Below, in pieces: positions 20,162 through 59,578 of a stretch of DNA of 64,000 bases. The translations under genes were made by a program, and so were the position numbers. The stretch comes from Pseudoprimorskyibacter insulae (GTDB lineage: Bacteria; Pseudomonadota; Alphaproteobacteria; Rhodobacterales; Rhodobacteraceae). Each line of letters opens with the position of its first letter. The stretch's first letter is position 1. Under the pieces are notes generated by a model that saw only the letters and a program-made list of their open reading frames with translations, ran no database searches and was not told where the DNA came from. Location of the stretch: NCBI RefSeq assembly GCF_900302505.1, contig NZ_OMOJ01000003.1, forward strand, positions 1 through 64,000. The letters are read 5' to 3'.

Positions 20162-20875
20162 TTATGCGGATTTCTTTTCGATCAGATCCCGCAGACGGAA
20201 AATCGCCGCCTTCTTGATCTGAGACACGCGGCCAGTGGTCACCTCGAGCACGGCGGCGATTTCGTAGACGTTCATTTCCTCGACATAGTATAGCTGAAGC
20301 ACCAGCGCCTCGCGCTCGGGCAGCTCTTCCAGCGCCTCGCGCAGCAGTCGCTTCATATCGTTCTGTTCAAGAAGGTCTTCTTGCGTGGGCGTGCGATCGC
20401 TGAACAGGATCGAATGATCGCTATAAACCTCATCAAGCGATTGAAGCTGGTTGACCTGAAACCGGGCCTCCCATTCCTTCAACTCGGGGACGGTCATTTC
20501 CAGTTCGGCGGCGATTTCTTCAGTCTCGGGCCTGCGCCCCAGCTTATGTTCCAGCGTCCGCTGCACCTTGGCCGCCTTCTGGCGCATGGTGATCGTGGCG
20601 CGGCACAGGTTGGAATTGCGCCGAAGCAGATCGACGATAGATCCACGAATGCGAATGGACGCGTAAGAGGCAAAGCTGACACCGTCGCGCACATTATAGC
20701 GCTGCGAGGCATCGACCAGCCCCAGATACCCTGCCTGAAGCAGGTCTTCGATCTCGGCGAATTTGCCAACGCGGCCTTGGAAATGCCAGGCGATGCGCTG
20801 CACCAGGTGCATATGCTCTTCCACCAGCTTTTCCGGTTTCAGTGCCTGCTGTTCGTATGATCGCGGGATCATCAT
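20162..20875 (-). CDS. fliA: Flagellar sigma factor sigma-28
   Basis: A 237-residue sigma factor of the FliA type. Region 2 shows EDLLQAGYLGLVDASQRY and the -10 recognition segment FASYASIRIRGSIVDLLR. Region 4 shows LEELPEREALVLQLYYVEEMNVYEIA with the helix-turn-helix TTGRVSQIKKAAIFRLR. It directs RNA polymerase to late flagellar promoters such as those proposed here for fliC, fliD and fliS, and is held by the FlgM encoded at 26871. Its ATG overlaps the flhF-like stop (ATGA), so it is the last gene of the flhA-flhF-fliA unit driven by the sigma-54 promoter at 24314. Confidence 0.93.
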   Translation of the reverse strand: MMIPRSYEQQALKPEKLVEEHMHLVQRIAWHFQGRVGKFAEIEDLLQAGYLGLVDASQRYNVRDGVSFASYASIRIRGSIVDLLRRNSNLCRATITMRQKAAKVQRTLEHKLGRRPETEEIAAELEMTVPELKEWEARFQVNQLQSLDEVYSDHSILFSDRTPTQEDLLEQNDMKRLLREALEELPEREALVLQLYYVEEMNVYEIAAVLEVTTGRVSQIKKAAIFRLRDLIEKKSA

Positions 20876-22101
20876 GCAAGACCTCCTTTACGTTCTGCCG
20901 CGCGCGCACGGGTCATCCCGGCGGGCTCGGGGCGTGTCTGGGCCTCTAGCCCGCCGACCATACGGTGGCGTCGAGATACCCATGCAAGGCGCAGGCCGAC
21001 ATCGGACAGCACCTCAAATTCTTCTGGATCAATCGGATCAAAAGCGTCGGCGGACAGAACCACCTGATCGGCCAGCCCGCGCCACGGCGCGGCAAGCCGT
21101 TCAATCGCGCGGCGGCGCAGACCAGCGGGCAGGACCAAGACAACCAAGGCGCCATCAGGGATCTGCTGGGCCGGGTCTGTCTGGCCGCTATCTGCACCGC
21201 GCCCCGAAATGATGGTGATCTGGCTGCCGTTTTCATCCGGGGTCGGGATGCGGCCATAAGGGGCGAACCGGCAATCCGCCGAAAGCAAAGCAGCCTTTTG
21301 GAACAGCAGCGCACCATCTGTGCGTGAATCGCTGCCCGTGAACACAAAACGCGGGCAATCAGAGCGACCAATTTCATCGCGCAGCAGCGCAAGTTGAAGC
21401 GCAACCAAAGACTTACCAGCCCCCGCAGGGCCAACCAAAACAACGTGCTGCGCCTGAAGCATCGGGGTTACGGGACGCTGCGGCTCATGCACCGGGGCTT
21501 CGGGCTCTGGTTGAATCTCCAGCTTGAAGATCCGGGCAAAGCCTGCGGGTTCCGCCTTGGGGGCCACATCCTCGGCGCGCAGGGCTTCGACCGGGAAAGG
21601 CGTGACGTCAGGGCCAATGATCGTATCTTCGGTAAGGCCAGACCCGGCGACGGGGCCGTCCTCATCCAGATCGTCGTCGAGAAACGGGTCTTCGAAGACC
21701 GGCTCGTTGTCGTTGATCTCAGGTTCGGGTTCGGCGACCGCCTTGGGCGCGACAACCGGCTGAGGTTTGAAGACTGGCTCGCGCTTGATGAACGGCTCAG
21801 CGCGCATGACAGGCTCAGGCTCGATCGGCTCATCCACGTCGATGTTGATCCGCGACGGTCGGGAAAAGATCGTCAGGCCCTTGGTGGCATCATCCACCGC
21901 TTTGGCCTCGGGCTTTGGGGCGATTTCTGGCGTGTGCCTTGCCGCCACCGGACCAATATCATTGTCGTCATCCGTGGCGGTGATTTCGAACATCCCACCT
22001 TGGGTTTCAGTCGAAAGGATCAGCGCATCCGGCCCCAATTCGCGCATGATGATGTTCATGGCTTCGGTGCTGTCTTTGGCGCGAACAGTCAGGCGTCCCA
22101 T
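20872..22101 (-). CDS. flhF: FlhF-like protein with degenerate GTPase
   Basis: A 409-residue protein. The first 45 residues (MGRLTVRAKDSTEAMNIIMR then ELGPDALILST) match the FlhF N-terminal B-domain start. A long Pro/Glu-rich linker (about 60-215) precedes an SRP-GTPase-like NG part with an intact P-loop (VGPAGAGKS). The other GTPase motifs look eroded: the DTAGR-type G3 appears as ISGRG and the TKLD-type G4 as SADAFD. FlhF sets flagellar position and number. The gene lies between flhA and fliA as expected. A pseudoenzyme that retains placement but not normal GTP hydrolysis is a reasonable reading. Confidence 0.75.
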   Translation of the reverse strand: MGRLTVRAKDSTEAMNIIMRELGPDALILSTETQGGMFEITATDDDNDIGPVAARHTPEIAPKPEAKAVDDATKGLTIFSRPSRINIDVDEPIEPEPVMRAEPFIKREPVFKPQPVVAPKAVAEPEPEINDNEPVFEDPFLDDDLDEDGPVAGSGLTEDTIIGPDVTPFPVEALRAEDVAPKAEPAGFARIFKLEIQPEPEAPVHEPQRPVTPMLQAQHVVLVGPAGAGKSLVALQLALLRDEIGRSDCPRFVFTGSDSRTDGALLFQKAALLSADCRFAPYGRIPTPDENGSQITIISGRGADSGQTDPAQQIPDGALVVLVLPAGLRRRAIERLAAPWRGLADQVVLSADAFDPIDPEEFEVLSDVGLRLAWVSRRHRMVGGLEAQTRPEPAGMTRARAAERKGGLA

Positions 22102-27671: not shown

Positions 27672-28301
27672 CTAATCGGGGCAACTGACCGGGCGCACAT
27701 CCGACGGCACGCGGCCGCACCATTCGACAAACCGCGCCTTGGCATCGGCCTGCGCTGCGGTGCGCTCTTCGGTCGTCAGCTCCATCGACATGCTGTCGCG
27801 CAAGGCCGCGCTATATTCCACGCCAAAGGCTGCCGCCACGCTGAACCACGCCATTGCGGCGGGCTTGTTCGCGGGTTCGGCCAGTTGCGCATGAACGCGG
27901 CCAATACCCATAAAACTATGCACTCGGCCCTTTTCGGCCTCGGTCGCCAGATCGCCCAGCAGACGGTTGACCACGCTTTCGCGTGCCTCGTCCGTCAGGC
28001 GGCGGTCAAGATAATCGGTTACGGGTATGGCACGTTTTTCACCGCCCAAACGGCCCCGCCATGCCCAATAGAAGGCCTCGGCATCGTCTTGGGGCGTGCC
28101 CTGCCCCTTGGCGTATAGAACGGCCAGATTGGTCTGCGCGCCAGCACTGCCAGCGCGCGCCAGATCATGAAACAAAACAACCGCCCGCGCGGAATCGCCG
28201 TTTCGCGCTGCGTTCAACGCGGCCTGAAACCCTTCTGCCGCAGCCAACGAGGTGCCGGCCACGCATGCGATTATTCCTGTTGCGCGGGCAATCCGTTTCA
28301 T
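27672..28301 (-). CDS. Secreted Sel1-repeat protein, possible MotX-like motor accessory
   Basis: A 209-residue exported protein (signal peptide about 1-22). Residues about 25-85 contain Sel1/TPR-like repeats (LARAGSAGAQTNLAVLYAKG, QGTPQDDAEAFYWAWRGRL), with a further helical repeat at AMAWFSVAAAFGVEY. Sel1-repeat periplasmic proteins include Vibrio MotX, which joins PomB to the basal-body T-ring. The genome's FlgT, FlgP and PomAB-like stator make a comparable role plausible, but this is inference. It overlaps the upstream gene by four bases and shares a sigma-28-like promoter. Confidence 0.65.
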   Translation of the reverse strand: MKRIARATGIIACVAGTSLAAAEGFQAALNAARNGDSARAVVLFHDLARAGSAGAQTNLAVLYAKGQGTPQDDAEAFYWAWRGRLGGEKRAIPVTDYLDRRLTDEARESVVNRLLGDLATEAEKGRVHSFMGIGRVHAQLAEPANKPAAMAWFSVAAAFGVEYSAALRDSMSMELTTEERTAAQADAKARFVEWCGRVPSDVRPVSCPD

Positions 28302-28732
28302 TTTCCTGCCATCATCACCAATTGTAGATACAGCAGCCGCCGACGGCGACCATCCAGCGTGCGTTCATAGACCACGACGCGTTGGCGTTCGCTGGCCGTG
28401 GTTTCGATCACGATGCTGATATTGTCGGGTAGGAACACATTGTGCCGCGCCAGAAGCTCTAGCGGGTCTTGCATCATCGCCGCGCTGAACGTCGGATCGA
28501 TCCAGCTTCGCGCCAAGGCGCGGCCAAGGATGTCCGGCAGGTGCTTGATGACCTTTTCCGTGTCCCGCAATGTCGTCCGGCGGCGCACGAGCCCCCAGTC
28601 GTCATGCAAATTCGTATCGTCGCCGCCGTCATATTCGGCGTTGCGTTCATATTCTGCGCGTCCTGCGCTGCTTCGTCGCTGTGTCAGCCGTTTTATAGCT
28701 GGAACAAGCGCTGTGCCGGCTCCGAAATTCAT
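28298..28732 (-). CDS. Nitrile-hydratase-leader-like (NHLP) domain protein of unknown function
   Basis: A 144-residue protein. The C-terminal 80 residues align by eye with the N-terminal domain of nitrile hydratase alpha and NHLP leader peptides: ARSWIDPTFSAAMMQDPLEL, then LARHNVFLPDNISIVIE, matching W-x-DP-x-F, DP, L, P and V-V-E positions. The nitrile hydratase Cys cluster is absent and no precursor core follows. The N-terminal third is basic and low in pattern. The ATG at 28732 follows GGGGAT; a GTG at 28747 is also in frame. It is first in an operon with the Sel1 protein, behind a sigma-28-like promoter, so a late flagellar role is likely although undefined. Confidence 0.6.
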   Translation of the reverse strand: MNFGAGTALVPAIKRLTQRRSSAGRAEYERNAEYDGGDDTNLHDDWGLVRRRTTLRDTEKVIKHLPDILGRALARSWIDPTFSAAMMQDPLELLARHNVFLPDNISIVIETTASERQRVVVYERTLDGRRRRLLYLQLVMMAGK

Positions 28733-28760
28733 GACCAAGATCCCCACTATCTGACCATAG

Positions 28761-28897: not shown

Positions 28898-29416
28898 ATG
28901 ACCTCTACTCCAGGATCCATGCGTCTCGGGATCGCAGCCATTCCAACCCTACTGCTCCCCGTGTTGTTCTCTCTGGGCGCATGGTATTCCTTGAAGATGC
29001 CAGTCGATGTGCTGGCCCCGCCAGAACCGGCGATCGAGGAGGAGGCTGTTCCCACCGAAGACGAAGCAGCGCCGCCCGTGGACACGCGGGTGTATCTGCC
29101 TGTCATCATCCCGTTGAAAGCCAGCCTGCCTGATTTCGGCGGCACCTTGATGGTGTCGATTGGGCTTGCCCTGCGCGGCGATGCCAGCAAAGCGCTGATC
29201 GACCAGCTTAAGGATAAGCCGGAACCGCTGATTTCACCTTTGGGGAATGTATTGCTGGATACGGCATCTACCGTTGACCCGGCCCAAGGCTGGAATGCCT
29301 TGCGCAAAGCCCTGCCCCAGGCGCTGATGGATGATCTGAACACCCGTGTTGCTGATTTGGACGACAGCGCCCCGATCCTCGAAGTTCTCATCATGGAGTT
29401 CCGTATCGGCGGATGA
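28898..29416 (+). CDS. FliL-like single-pass membrane protein
   Basis: About 172 residues: short cytoplasmic start, one membrane helix (AAIPTLLLPVLFSLGAWY), an acidic/proline-rich linker, and a periplasmic domain with the FliL-like pattern YLPVIIPLKASLPDFGGTLM, ISPLGNVLLD, ALRKALPQALMDDLN and final LEVLIMEFRIGG. FliL-type proteins ring the stator. A second, canonical FliL is encoded at 50507, so this would be a paralogue or a MotF-like rotation factor. The start is uncertain: TTG at 28880 and ATG at 28898 or 28919 are possible and none has a good ribosome site. Confidence 0.55.
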   Translation: MTSTPGSMRLGIAAIPTLLLPVLFSLGAWYSLKMPVDVLAPPEPAIEEEAVPTEDEAAPPVDTRVYLPVIIPLKASLPDFGGTLMVSIGLALRGDASKALIDQLKDKPEPLISPLGNVLLDTASTVDPAQGWNALRKALPQALMDDLNTRVADLDDSAPILEVLIMEFRIGG

Positions 29417-29420
29417 TAGC

Positions 29421-29436
29421 TGGCACAGGTCTTGCA
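29421..29436 (+). promoter_or_regulatory. Sigma-54 promoter of 52-residue ORF
   Basis: TGGCACAGGTCTTGCA, perfect -24 and -12 elements, beginning five bases after the FliL-like stop and 45 bases before the ATG at 29466. The only plus-strand gene downstream of it is that small ORF. Confidence 0.88.
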
Positions 29437-29465
29437 ACTATGTCTTCAACCAACCGGAGACGACC

Positions 29466-29624
29466 ATGCACCATCTAAGCACCATCGCCAATCGCCTGAT
29501 GCAGCGCCATGCCTCGCTTGAGGATGTCGCCGTGCAGACGGTGTATTTTGACGATGACGGTCAGGCCCATCCCGGCAAACCTACTTCGCTTGCCGCGTTT
29601 TTGCATCAGATGGTGCTGCATTAG
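29466..29624 (+). CDS. 52-residue histidine-rich protein driven by sigma-54
   Basis: A small ORF starting MHHLSTIANRLMQRHASLED and ending FLHQMVLH, with seven His residues, no membrane helix and a VQTVYFDDDGQ strand-like centre. GGAG lies six bases before the ATG and an excellent sigma-54 promoter lies 45 bases upstream. The following genes are on the other strand, and its last 44 bases overlap the end of the convergent gene at 29581. It appears to be a monocistronic member of the flagellar RpoN regulon. I do not recognise a family. Confidence 0.65.
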   Translation: MHHLSTIANRLMQRHASLEDVAVQTVYFDDDGQAHPGKPTSLAAFLHQMVLH

Positions 29625-29826
29625 ACCAGCGATAGATTGCCAGTCGCAACAAGAACACGGCAATCCCGGCCACCAAGATGGCCCAGCCGATCACTATAGG
29701 TGACGGCATAAGTCGGGCGATCTTCTGCACACCTTCTGGCTGCAAAAAGATCATTGCGATCAAAGGGATCGCAACCATCAGGAACCACCTGATGCGGGTG
29801 CATATTTGGCAACCCCGCCATCCCAT
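29581..29826 (-). CDS. Small two-helix membrane protein in the fliS operon
   Basis: An 81-residue protein with two predicted membrane helices (RWFLMVAIPLIAMIFLQP and SPIVIGWAILVAGIAVFLL) and a polar tail. Its ATG at 29826 forms a TGATG overlap with the stop of the preceding gene, which is good evidence that it is translated. Its end overlaps the convergent 52-residue ORF. Function unknown; probably motility-linked by operon membership. Confidence 0.6.
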   Translation of the reverse strand: MGWRGCQICTRIRWFLMVAIPLIAMIFLQPEGVQKIARLMPSPIVIGWAILVAGIAVFLLRLAIYRWSNAAPSDAKTRQAK

Positions 29827-30158
29827 CAGCCTTTACCTTTCCCTTTCCCCTTCGAATACGCCAGATAAACCCCGCGCTTGCGCTGCGTCTTTTGAACAGC
29901 CTCTTGGGTTTTCTGAAGAACGGCCGCCGCATTGCGAACGGACACAAGCGCGCGTTGCAGCGCTTCGACCCGGTCTTGCGGCGCGTCGCCAAACTGATCT
30001 TCACCGATCAGGGCAATTACAGCGTTGCGTATGGCATGATCCAGACGACTGACGTCTTCCAGACGCCCCTCATCCACGGCCCGAGCCAGCTCTTGGCAGA
30101 GACGTTCAAGGCGTTCTGTTGCGGCGGCTTCTGACATGAGTGCGATGCACAGGCTCAC
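29826..30158 (-). CDS. Small helical protein downstream of fliS, FliT-like candidate
   Basis: A 110-residue protein, nearly all helical (LERLCQELARAVDEGRLEDV, VEALQRALVSVRNAAAVLQK), ending in a basic GKGKGKG tail. The size and place directly after fliS fit FliT, the FliD chaperone, but sequence identity to FliT is not recognisable. The GTG at 30158 overlaps the fliS stop (GTGA); an ATG at 30137 is an alternative start. Confidence 0.55.
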   Translation of the reverse strand: MSLCIALMSEAAATERLERLCQELARAVDEGRLEDVSRLDHAIRNAVIALIGEDQFGDAPQDRVEALQRALVSVRNAAAVLQKTQEAVQKTQRKRGVYLAYSKGKGKGKG

Positions 30159-30553
30159 TTGCCCTGCCCCTTAACCTGCGGCCCGATCCCGCGCCACGCT
30201 TCCAGAATATCGGCGATGGAATCCCGCGCTTCGACCAGCAATGCGCTCTCGTCCTTGCGGATCGAGGCCAAAACCTGCTGGCGGGCGAATTCATACAGCT
30301 GCATCAGCAATTCGGCGATATCCGCGCCGCGCTCCATGTCCAGGCTGGACTGAAGGATGTAGATCGCGGTCAGCGCACGGCTGCTGTGTTCCTCGGGGGG
30401 AAGGCGGTCTTTGGCGCGGGCTGCGACCATCACGTCCAGCGACCGGTGCAGCTCGCGCAAAGTAACCGAAATGACCTCATGCGGGTCGTCGATCCGCGGG
30501 TGGCCGACAGCTTCGGCCTGGCGGTATCTGGAGCGAGCAAGCGATATCGTCAT
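30155..30553 (-). CDS. fliS: Flagellin export chaperone FliS
   Basis: A 132-residue helical protein with FliS hallmarks: the N-terminal RSRYRQAEAVG, and RALTAIYILQSSLDMERGAD followed by LLMQLYEFARQQVLASI and a final ADILEAWRGI. It binds the flagellin C-terminus in the cytoplasm and hands it to FlhA. The ATG at 30553 has GGAG seven bases upstream. A sigma-28-like promoter lies just upstream, matching the late class of fliS. Confidence 0.9.
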   Translation of the reverse strand: MTISLARSRYRQAEAVGHPRIDDPHEVISVTLRELHRSLDVMVAARAKDRLPPEEHSSRALTAIYILQSSLDMERGADIAELLMQLYEFARQQVLASIRKDESALLVEARDSIADILEAWRGIGPQVKGQGK

Positions 30554-30596
30554 AGCGGTTCTCCGGTCTGCATTGTGCATCGTTGTTACTTAGATC

Positions 30597-41787: not shown

Positions 41788-41820
41788 TTCTAGATACCGA
41801 TGGAACAGCGGGACAAAATC

Positions 41821-42945
41821 ATGAACGATCTTCTTCTTATTGCCTCCGAACTGAACGCAGCCACCGGCCTTGTCGATCTTCTTTCGCGCCGCCGGGTTGC
41901 CGTCACCGAAGACGCCAAAGAAAAGGCCGCAGCCTTGGTTTGCAGCGCCGCGCATGAAACCTCGCTTGGGGGGCAGCGCGCCTTGGTTGAGCTGGCCCGC
42001 ACCGCCGGTGCCAAACAGATCCACGTGATCCACGAAAATGCCGACGCCTTCGCCGTCGAAGAAGAACTGGGCGGTCGTTTGCAGCGCATCCACCTGCCCC
42101 AGTCCGGCACCGCGGTTTTGTCGAACGGTCCCATGATGTTGCTGGCCGATCTGATTGCGTCGGCTCATGCCCCTATGGTGGCCGCAGATGCCGCGACCGG
42201 TGCCTTGATCGATATGGCCACCCGCGTTGCTGGCTTTGATGTGGGCGTCTTCATCAACGGCCCCTCGGGCAGCGGCAAAGAGGTTCTGGCCCGCACCATC
42301 CACGAAAAATCCCCCCGCGCTGGTAAGCCCTTCATCGCCATCAACTGCGCCGCCATTCCTGAAAACATGCTTGAATCGGTGCTGTTCGGCCATGAGAAAG
42401 GCGCCTTCACCGGCGCGACCACCGCAAACACCGGCATCATGCGCGCCGCCGATGGTGGCACCTTGCTGCTGGATGAAATCTCGGAAATGCCGCTGTCGCT
42501 TCAGGCCAAGCTGCTGCGCGTGCTTCAGGAACGCAAAGTGACCCCGCTGGGCACCCAGAAGGAAATCGAGGTTGATATCCGCGTGATCGCCACCTCGAAC
42601 CGCGACATGGAGATCGAGGTTCAGAAGGGCACCTTCCGCGAAGACCTGTACTACCGCCTGAACGTGTTCCCGCTGGAAACCACCGCGCTGGCTCAGCGCA
42701 GCGCCGATGTGCCGGTTCTGGCCCAAGCCATGCTGCGTCGTCACACCGGCCCCGGCCAGACCGTGCCGCTGCTGAGTGCGGACGCCTGCGCCATTCTGGC
42801 CAAGCACAGCTGGCCCGGCAACGTGCGTGAATTGGAAAACGTCATGCAGCGCGCGCTGGTGCTGTGCGACGGGCAATCCGTGCGTCCGCAAGACATCATG
42901 CTGAACGCCCGCACCGCGGCCCTGCGCCCGGTTCGCGCGGCCTGA
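41821..42945 (+). CDS. fleT: Sigma-54 activator FleT-like, lacking a DNA-binding domain
   Basis: A 374-residue bacterial enhancer-binding protein. The first about 120 residues are a diverged N-terminal domain. The AAA+ domain shows Walker [10 protein letters not shown], the sigma-54 contact loop KGAFTGA, Walker [14 protein letters not shown] and [13 protein letters not shown]. The protein stops about 30 residues after the AAA+ domain ([20 protein letters not shown]) with no Fis-type helix-turn-helix. In R. sphaeroides FleT has exactly this truncation and works with FleQ as a mixed complex. It heads the fliEFGHIJ operon; fleQ is not in the window. Confidence 0.9.
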
Positions 42946-50506: not shown

Positions 50507-51085
50507 ATGGCCGACAAGACCGATATAGACGAGCCCCAAAAGAAAAAGGGCGGATTGATTAAGAAGATCCTGATGTTCATCTTCGGGATCGCCCTTCTGG
50601 GCGGTGGCTTTTACGGCGGGATTTTCTATTCCGGTCAACAAATGTCGCCCAGCGAAGAGGTGCTGAAGCTCATTGAGCAGGACAAGGCCGATGCAGATGC
50701 CGAAGCCGAGGCCGCCGCTGAGGCAGAGCCGAGCAAAGTGGCAAAGGACATCCCGGAAACGCCGATGTTCACCACCAGCTACTATGAGTTCCCCGATCCG
50801 CTGACCACCAATCTGGCGGGGTCGACACGGTTTATTCAGCTCGGTGTGGGCCTGTCCACGCAATATGATGAATCGATCATCACCAATGTCGAAACCCATG
50901 CCATGGCCATCCGGTCGGATATGCTGGCTGTCATCAGCGGCTTTTCCGAAGCCGAAGTGACCGGCAAGGAAGGGCGTGACCGCCTGTCTGAGGCCCTCAA
51001 AAACGCGGTGAACGATCGCCTCGTTTCGCTCGAAGGCTTTGGTGGAATCGAAGATGTGTTCTTCCCCAGCTTCGTAATGCAATAA
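50507..51085 (+). CDS. fliL: Stator-associated protein FliL
   Basis: A 192-residue single-pass protein: basic start (PKKKGGLIKKI), membrane helix about 22-42, acidic linker, and periplasmic domain with YYEFPDPLTTNLAGSTRFIQ, LGVGLSTQYDE and GRDRLSEALKNAVNDRLVSL. It forms a ring around MotB and is required for swimming in R. sphaeroides. Confidence 0.92.
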   Translation: MADKTDIDEPQKKKGGLIKKILMFIFGIALLGGGFYGGIFYSGQQMSPSEEVLKLIEQDKADADAEAEAAAEAEPSKVAKDIPETPMFTTSYYEFPDPLTTNLAGSTRFIQLGVGLSTQYDESIITNVETHAMAIRSDMLAVISGFSEAEVTGKEGRDRLSEALKNAVNDRLVSLEGFGGIEDVFFPSFVMQ

Positions 51086-56509: not shown

Positions 56510-56607
56510 GGGGTCGCTTTCTGGATGAATTGGCAGTCCCTTTGCTGAACGGCAAATCCGCGCCGAAACTTAGGCCTTGGCGCAAACATTCCGGCAAGAT
56601 CCGGGAC

Positions 56608-56623
56608 TGGCACAAAAAATGCA
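56608..56623 (+). promoter_or_regulatory. Sigma-54 promoter of the 56670 gene pair
   Basis: TGGCACAAAAAATGCA, GG and GC 12 bases apart with one mismatch in the -12 box, 47 bases before the ATG. Confidence 0.78.
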
Positions 56624-56669
56624 CAGACAGGACAAATCCCGATCAAGACGATCCCTCAAGGAGCGAACC

Positions 56670-57404
56670 ATGACCGAAACCAGCCAAGAGTTGCAGGACG
56701 GTATCCGCCTGGCGCTGGAAGCGGCAGAAGCCGCAAACGACGCCGCCGCGGAAGTCGATAAGATGACCACCGCAACCGAACGCGCAGCCCATCGGATCGA
56801 TACGTTTGGCTCAAAGATGCGGCCCTTGATGATTGGCACGCTTGCCGGGTCTGTGGTGGTGATCGGGCTGGCCAGCCTTGTCTATTTCCGCACGCTTAGC
56901 GAAATGCGCACCGCCACCGCTACCCAGCTTGAGGCGTTGACCATGTTCGCCTCGCGCGTGGAAGGTTTGGATCAGTCGCTGACCAATGCCGAGGCCCTGC
57001 TGGCCGAGATCAAGGCAGTGAAGGCCGGACAGGACGAACATTTCGCCGCGCTTCAGACGCGTCTGGATGGCATGGGCCTAAACCTGGTCGAAGAGGCCAA
57101 TTCCTATTCCGAAGCGGCTGATACGCTCAAATCCCAGATTGAGGCGACCGTAATGCAAGCCGTGGATGAGGGCAGCCAGAAAACCCAAGATGCTTTCACA
57201 GCGGGCCTGTCTGATCTGCAACTAGCGATGACGCGCCTTTTGGCCGATGCGGTTACCGCCGCGCCCGCCGCCGCGCCTGCCCCGTCGTCTAAGCCAGCGG
57301 CCAAGACCGCCACGCCGGTCAAACCCAAGACCGTGGCCGTTCCGAAAAAACCTACGGCAAAGGCCCGGCCTGCGCCGCGCCCGAACCCGTTTTCCTACCC
57401 CTAA
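56670..57404 (+). CDS. Single-pass coiled-coil protein of the RpoN motility regulon
   Basis: A 244-residue protein: cytoplasmic coiled coil (LEAAEAANDAAAEVDKMTTA), one membrane helix about 52-74 (LMIGTLAGSVVVIGLASLVY), a long periplasmic coiled coil, and an Ala/Pro/Lys-rich end (PAPSSKPAAKTATPVKPKTV). Such topology recalls motor accessory proteins like R. sphaeroides MotF, but I cannot confirm the match. GGAG lies seven bases before the ATG at 56670 and a sigma-54 promoter is upstream. Confidence 0.6.
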   Translation: MTETSQELQDGIRLALEAAEAANDAAAEVDKMTTATERAAHRIDTFGSKMRPLMIGTLAGSVVVIGLASLVYFRTLSEMRTATATQLEALTMFASRVEGLDQSLTNAEALLAEIKAVKAGQDEHFAALQTRLDGMGLNLVEEANSYSEAADTLKSQIEATVMQAVDEGSQKTQDAFTAGLSDLQLAMTRLLADAVTAAPAAAPAPSSKPAAKTATPVKPKTVAVPKKPTAKARPAPRPNPFSYP

Positions 57405-58122: not shown

Positions 58123-59448
58123 TTAGCTGCTGGCCAGTTTCGCCTGACGCTTGCGCTGGAAACTGGACGGGATCTTCAGCATATCGCGATACTTGGCGAC
58201 GGTGCGGCGGGCCAGATGCGTGCCTTCATCCGAGATGATCTGCGCAAGGGCATCATCCGACAGCGGCTTTTTGGGGTCTTCATCGCGCACCAGTTGCTGA
58301 ATGCGGTGACGAACCGAAGCCGAGGATGCTGCGCCTTCGCCATCGGTGCTGAGCGCCGTGGTGAAGAAGTTCTTCAGGCTAAAGGTACCCTGCGGCGTAA
58401 CAATCAGCATCCCGGTGGTGATACGGCTGACGGTGCTTTCATGCACGCCGATTGCCTCGGCCACGTCCTTGAGGGTCATCGGTTCAATCCGCGACGGTCC
58501 GTGTTCCAGGAATTCGGCCTGACGGCGCACGATCTCGGCGCCAACAGACAAGGTCGTGTGATTGCGATGCTCAACCGCGCGGCGCAGCCAGCGGGCCACG
58601 CTCAGACGTTCGCCCACATATTCACCGGCCGAACGGTCGCGGCGCACGTCTTGTGCCTTGGTTTCATCCACCTTGACCGACGGCAGGGTCGAGCGGTTCA
58701 GATCCACGCGCCAGCCATCATCGCCGCGGGTGACAATCAGATCGGGTTCGCGCTGGGTCAGCTCGCCATGGTCGAAGTCTGCGCCCGGCTTGGGGTTCAG
58801 GCTGCGCAGCGATTTCAGGCAGTCTTTCAGTTCGTCCATGGTGCATTTGCACACCCGGCACAGACCGGCCAGATCGGCGGCGGCCAGCTTGGGCAAGTTT
58901 TCCAGCAGAGCCGCGAACAGGGGCGTCATGAGCCCGCGATCTTCGGCTTGAATGGCCAGACATTCGGCCAGCGACCGGGCAAACAGCCCCGCCGGTTCGA
59001 CCTGCTGCACCAGATGCAGCATTTCTTCGGCTTCTTCGCTGGACATCACACACCGCATTGCGATGGCTTCCAGCGGCTCACCCAGCCAGCCATTCGGCTC
59101 AAGCGCCTCAAGGAATTGTTCGGCAACCATGCGATCCCGCGGGTTGGTGAACATCACGTCAAACTGCCCCGAGACGTGTGTATAAAGGGAAGGCGCAGGC
59201 GCTTCGGCGCGGTCGCTGATATAGTCGAAATCGCTGGCAGCGCCGCGCGACATCGGCAGGCCAAGATCCCGGTGCTGGGCTGTTTCGCCACCGGCGACAT
59301 CCACAAACGGGTTTTCTTCGGCTTCGCTTTCAAGATAGGCGCGCAGGTCGAGGTTGCTCAGTTGCAGAAGGCAGATTGCCTGTTGCAGCTGCGCGGTCAT
59401 GACCATCGACTGACGCTGAGATAAGTTCTGTGAAACGTGCAAGTTCAT
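58123..59448 (-). CDS. rpoN: RNA polymerase sigma-54 factor of the flagellar cluster
   Basis: A 441-residue sigma-54. Region I is Gln/Leu-rich (QRQSMVMTAQLQQAICLLQL), the core-binding region follows, the -12-binding helix-turn-helix is MTLKDVAEAIGVHESTVSRI, and the RpoN box is ARRTVAKYRDML near the end. R. sphaeroides has a dedicated RpoN2 in the Fla1 cluster that is specific for flagellar promoters, and the location here supports the same. The ATG at 59448 has GGAGG seven bases upstream. Confidence 0.93.
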   Translation of the reverse strand: MNLHVSQNLSQRQSMVMTAQLQQAICLLQLSNLDLRAYLESEAEENPFVDVAGGETAQHRDLGLPMSRGAASDFDYISDRAEAPAPSLYTHVSGQFDVMFTNPRDRMVAEQFLEALEPNGWLGEPLEAIAMRCVMSSEEAEEMLHLVQQVEPAGLFARSLAECLAIQAEDRGLMTPLFAALLENLPKLAAADLAGLCRVCKCTMDELKDCLKSLRSLNPKPGADFDHGELTQREPDLIVTRGDDGWRVDLNRSTLPSVKVDETKAQDVRRDRSAGEYVGERLSVARWLRRAVEHRNHTTLSVGAEIVRRQAEFLEHGPSRIEPMTLKDVAEAIGVHESTVSRITTGMLIVTPQGTFSLKNFFTTALSTDGEGAASSASVRHRIQQLVRDEDPKKPLSDDALAQIISDEGTHLARRTVAKYRDMLKIPSSFQRKRQAKLASS

Positions 59449-59578
59449 GTCGGTTCCTCCGTGACACGGACACCATCGAACACGTTTTAGCACTGGGTAA
59501 AGATCGGGGATTTGACGCTTGGGCCGTCAAGGAAACGTCACCCATGCCAATTTAATAAGCATTTGTTTCAAAACAGCA

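Follow-up and report, generated by a model that had tools for sequence, protein, structure and literature searches.

The flagellum named Fla1 in Cereibacter sphaeroides is encoded by a gene cluster of the fla3 type, thought to have been horizontally acquired (PMC12363192), and experimental work established that its genes are driven by RpoN2 with FleQ and FleQ/FleT (PMC7277832, PMC11999139). Several hypothetical genes of this organism, RSP_6086-RSP_6090, were reported in the UdsC paper to be co-regulated with its motility genes (PMC9779115), and one of them may, by position, be the orthologue of the small gene analyzed here. This gene lies in a 64,000-nucleotide stretch of Pseudoprimorskyibacter insulae, hereafter the window, which holds a large cluster of genes for flagella and chemotaxis, among them flhA, fliA, flgM, fliS, fliK, fliL, flhB, motA, motB, cheA and cheB. 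An independently promoted protein-coding gene found in this cluster, its coding part located within positions 29421-29624, belongs to the same flagellum that is named Fla1 in C. sphaeroides. The relevant features are the following:

28919-29416, plus strand: upstream neighbor, a FliL-fold periplasmic protein with a single transmembrane (TM) segment (best AlphaFold2 match 6AHQ, FliL, E 4.8e-4)
29421-29436, plus strand: sigma-54 promoter of the -24/-12 type, TGGCACAGGTCTTGCA, recognized by pattern match and by its conserved place in 43/47 homologues
29456-29459, plus strand: Shine-Dalgarno-like GGAG upstream of the ATG at 29466
29466-29624, plus strand: small flagellar gene of 52 codons (stop 29622-29624), MHHLSTIANRLMQRHASLEDVAVQTVYFDDDGQAHPGKPTSLAAFLHQMVLH, with a conserved frame and purifying selection among homologues
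29581-29826, minus strand: convergent gene that closes the fliS operon at its 3' end; its 81-aa product carries an N-terminal CxxC motif and probable TM segments
29826-30158, minus strand: FliT-like small protein of the fliS operon, assigned by position and conservation, with no Pfam match
30155-30580, minus strand: fliS (Pfam PF02561, E 4.9e-14)
41800-42945, plus strand: FleT-like sigma-54 activator with an AAA domain and no C-terminal DNA-binding domain, the candidate activator
58123-59493, minus strand: rpoN of the flagellar cluster (RpoN2-like), the candidate sigma factor

The gene order around the small gene is that of the C. sphaeroides Fla1 cluster, as read in a locus (L029) that we take to be from strain 2.4.1. 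Among the homologue loci the FliL-like gene and the small gene run in one direction and are met by the genes for the TM protein, the FliT-like protein, FliS and CheA running in the other. Since C. sphaeroides, which serves as a model of this flagellum, has its own small gene, located at 9980-10168 of L029, the role of the gene is directly testable there. The sigma-54 (RpoN2/FleQ-FleT) class III genes of Fla1 share with it the promoter type, the cluster type and the cluster-encoded rpoN and FleT-like activator devoid of a DNA-binding domain; in contrast to them, the promoter in the window precedes a single tiny gene and not a structural operon, and its dependence on FleQ/FleT is putative. MotF of C. 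sphaeroides is likewise a lineage-restricted accessory gene of this flagellum, but it is a 24-kDa membrane protein encoded beside flhB, whereas the small protein lacks TM segments. MotF is also different from the FliL-fold neighbor: we considered the latter as a candidate MotF and rejected it, as in L029 this neighbor sits in the stretch from flhF/flhA/FlgM to fliS and MotF (RSP_0067) comes after flhB (RSP_0066) in locus-tag order. In the window, the gene at 56577-57404 (plus strand), without a Pfam or NCBIfam match, is likely the true MotF by its position after flhB.

The initial annotation had described a perfect -24/-12 element and a good ribosome site serving only this tiny gene, and all three points held. 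The promoter matches TGGCAC-N5-TTGCW perfectly (here TGGCAC-N5-TTGCA), GGAG lies ahead of the ATG, which is 31 nt past the GC of the -12 element, and transcription is predicted to start at about 29447. Since the next gene downstream on the plus strand comes only at about 41.8 kb, the promoter serves the 52-codon ORF only. Sites with at most one mismatch number 11 in the window against 3.3 expected, a count reached by no shuffle, and across all 4.0 Mb of the genome there are six copies of the exact TGGCAC-N5-TTGCA (one of a reversed control pattern), each of the six on contig C14 at 24-79 kb, which is the flagellar region. A site with at least 9 of 11 matches, no more than 110 nt from the start codon, precedes 43 of the 47 distinct homologues (91%; shuffles, 0.8%), usually with 31-40 nt between the -12 element and the start codon. 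The GG and TGC are invariant across these sites, and the base 3' of the GC is an A in 36 and a T in seven. The promoter belongs to the small gene, since its own site is retained in loci where the FliL-like neighbor is inverted (L028/L112, L082) and a comparable site precedes the FliL-like gene at just 21 of 53 loci. Likewise, the site is still present where the small gene stands apart from that neighbor (L138, L140-L142); the promoter remains with the small ORF where neighbors are inverted, moved or absent.

Single-sequence searches with the ORF of the window returned no match in relatives, and a profile was required. Homologues were first seen as small ORFs adjoining the first matches of the FliL-like neighbor, with V-E-x-V-x-x-D-x-x-G as their common core, and the set was enlarged with profiles and with a scan of named genomes using another conserved neighbor, yielding 47 distinct homologues of 45-71 residues. 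Homologues occur in about 50 genomes of Rhodobacteraceae and three of a second alphaproteobacterial family, and the small gene and its own promoter are preserved together in dozens of relatives, both marine and photosynthetic bacteria; additional copies lie elsewhere in genomes whose FliL-like neighbor has moved. In the second family the surroundings were read in two of the three genomes, and in both the homologue adjoins rpoN within a flagellar cluster; a -24/-12-like site is present; the third genome is presumably Ca. Puniceispirillum marinum. Beyond the Alphaproteobacteria, 349 genomes of the phylum gave no credible homologue, the remaining matches being weak. Two shorter versions, of 44 and 39 residues, stand behind sigma-54 sites at L169 (3351, minus strand) and L170 (4168, plus strand), and were detected by promoter more than by profile. 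The small gene appears dispensable in some lineages, since at least one genome (L099/G785) keeps the FliL-like neighbor with no small gene detected and about ten genomes bearing FliS/FlhA have neither; the small gene is thus either accessory and not core, or has diverged beyond detection in these ten.

The sequence of the small protein evolves fast, and purifying selection is seen among its homologues. In most close pairs of homologues, on which this test was made as the window copy has no close relative found, dN/dS (Nei-Gojobori) is about 0.05-0.4; the pair L029/L100 is an exception (0.78), and L025/L069 departs from the pattern in that all five changes are replacements and none is silent. 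The initial annotation had proposed a stand-alone small protein, to be checked by conservation of its frame: the frame is kept in dozens of genomes, and together with promoter conservation and purifying selection this strongly supports the proposal. At the level of sequence comparison, the small ORF is thus established as an independent, protein-coding flagellar gene with its own flagellar-type sigma-54 promoter. The product had also been called His-rich, which is true of the window copy (6 of 52 residues) and fails as a family trait (median 1.7%); histidines being private to this copy, we rejected them as a functional feature.

An AlphaFold2 model built with 41 homologues displays a beta-hairpin and a C-terminal helix, with a core at residues 21-50 (pLDDT about 95) and a poorly defined N-terminus. 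The product is predicted to be small, soluble and cytoplasmic, with a conserved hairpin and helix behind an N-terminus that varies and is probably flexible. No match was found in Pfam, NCBIfam, PHROG or PDB sequences, and fold searches among solved and viral structures revealed no analogue; a resemblance to the hairpin of WYL domains (two weak matches, L038 and L043) was judged due to chance. FliS, FliT, FlgN and FlbD/SwrD are likewise small and belong to the flagellar regulon, and the small protein is probably cytoplasmic. However, it matches no Pfam family of the FliS/FliT/FlgN export chaperones, FlbD/SwrD or CsrA, and a hairpin and helix are predicted in place of the helical bundle of the chaperones.

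Taking these observations together, we hypothesize, with a probability of roughly 0.6, that this is a sigma-54-regulon gene for a small accessory, adaptor or checkpoint protein of the Fla1-type flagellum. The analogy with C. sphaeroides strongly suggests class III-like control by RpoN with FleQ/FleT: the cluster-encoded RpoN and the FleQ/FleT activator pair would transcribe the small gene at mid-hierarchy, and synthesis of the protein would keep pace with that of the hook-basal body. Most likely it would act by binding another flagellar protein in late flagellar assembly or motor activation, whether as an accessory, as an adaptor or as a checkpoint factor. More broadly, the protein would be a small cytoplasmic factor, either accessory or regulatory, of the flagellum that C. 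sphaeroides has as Fla1, contributing to late assembly, to activation of the motor or to feedback.

One alternative, possible albeit unlikely, is that the small protein is a motor or stator accessory acting with the FliL-like neighbor or with the CxxC-TM protein. In fact, the genes are adjacent in most genomes, and the small and FliL-like genes mostly co-occur (about 48 genomes with both, one and one with a single gene, about ten with neither; Fisher p about 1e-9), in a hand-made table whose genomes are not phylogenetically independent and in which the association is confounded by adjacency and shared ancestry. Nevertheless, the small gene is found without the FliL-like neighbor in L071/G283, G780 and G784, and probably also in the second family, where the profile matches resemble canonical FliL; moreover, hardly any of the FliL-like protein is cytoplasmic. 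Somewhat less probable is a feedback role, in which the protein would bind a regulator (FleQ/FleT, RpoN or a different one) and thereby adjust the sigma-54 flagellar cascade, comparable to the FleN/FlhG anti-activators of other systems. Such a factor would fit with a sigma-54 promoter reserved for a single small soluble protein, with the position of the gene beside rpoN in the second family and, within the window, with an FlhF-like gene (20872-22101, minus strand) that directly abuts fliA with no flhG in between, but neither sequence nor fold connects the small protein with any regulator, and its neighbors are mostly structural or chaperone genes. The narrower proposal of a feedback switch of the FleQ/FleT-RpoN2 hierarchy, setting flagellar number or an assembly checkpoint in place of a FleN/FlhG-type regulator, is more doubtful still.

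The initial annotation also suggested an RNA of dual function, or an antisense RNA, directed at the end of the fliS operon that converges on the small gene; this is very improbable. The overlap that inspired it is real, as the 3' end of the small gene covers exactly 44 nt of the convergent ORF; however, the stop-to-stop distance ranges from -65 to +81 nt among homologues, so that an antisense role of the overlap is not conserved, and some homologues adjoin rpoN with no fliS-operon end nearby. Folding energies match those of shuffles (mean z -0.06 for 47 homologues; -0.91 for the window copy), leaving neither a conserved target overlap nor a conserved RNA structure, no credible Rfam match was found, and the frame is under coding selection. 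Based on dN/dS, the lack of excess RNA structure and the non-conserved overlap, the product is a protein. A chance ORF behind a promoter serving no gene, or a leftover frame, would suit a short, fast-evolving sequence without a known domain, but is refuted by the frame, promoter and spacing common to dozens of genomes and held under purifying selection.

The small protein, unnamed in the family libraries and undescribed in the literature that we searched, represents a new family, ordinary in kind, of lineage-restricted accessory proteins for the flagellum; the family so defined consists of small proteins and goes with a single flagellum type. Standard profile libraries miss it because it spans only about 40-70 residues and diverges rapidly, despite its well-conserved promoter. 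If a checkpoint or motor role proves true, a missing part would be filled in the well-studied, incomplete parts list of the flagellum.

Several other genes of the cluster deserve mention. The gene at 28919-29416 adds a further FliL-fold protein to the canonical FliL (50507-51085) and is limited to part of this flagellum type; Pfam FliL is matched by 14 of its 44 homologues. The 81-aa CxxC-TM protein has no family match above cut-off and is conserved in many relatives. The FlhF-like protein matches the FlhF model over its N-terminus only (E 5.8e-8, far below cut-off), and has a P-loop without an SRP54 GTPase match in Pfam. Finally, the gene at 28298-28747 (minus strand) encodes an undescribed 149-aa flagellar-cluster protein with a near-invariant RRLLYLQLVMMAGK end, whose C-terminal half weakly resembles, below cut-offs, nitrile hydratase alpha and NHLP leaders, and whose relatives occupy 70 loci, nearly all labelled Rhodobacteraceae or its genera.
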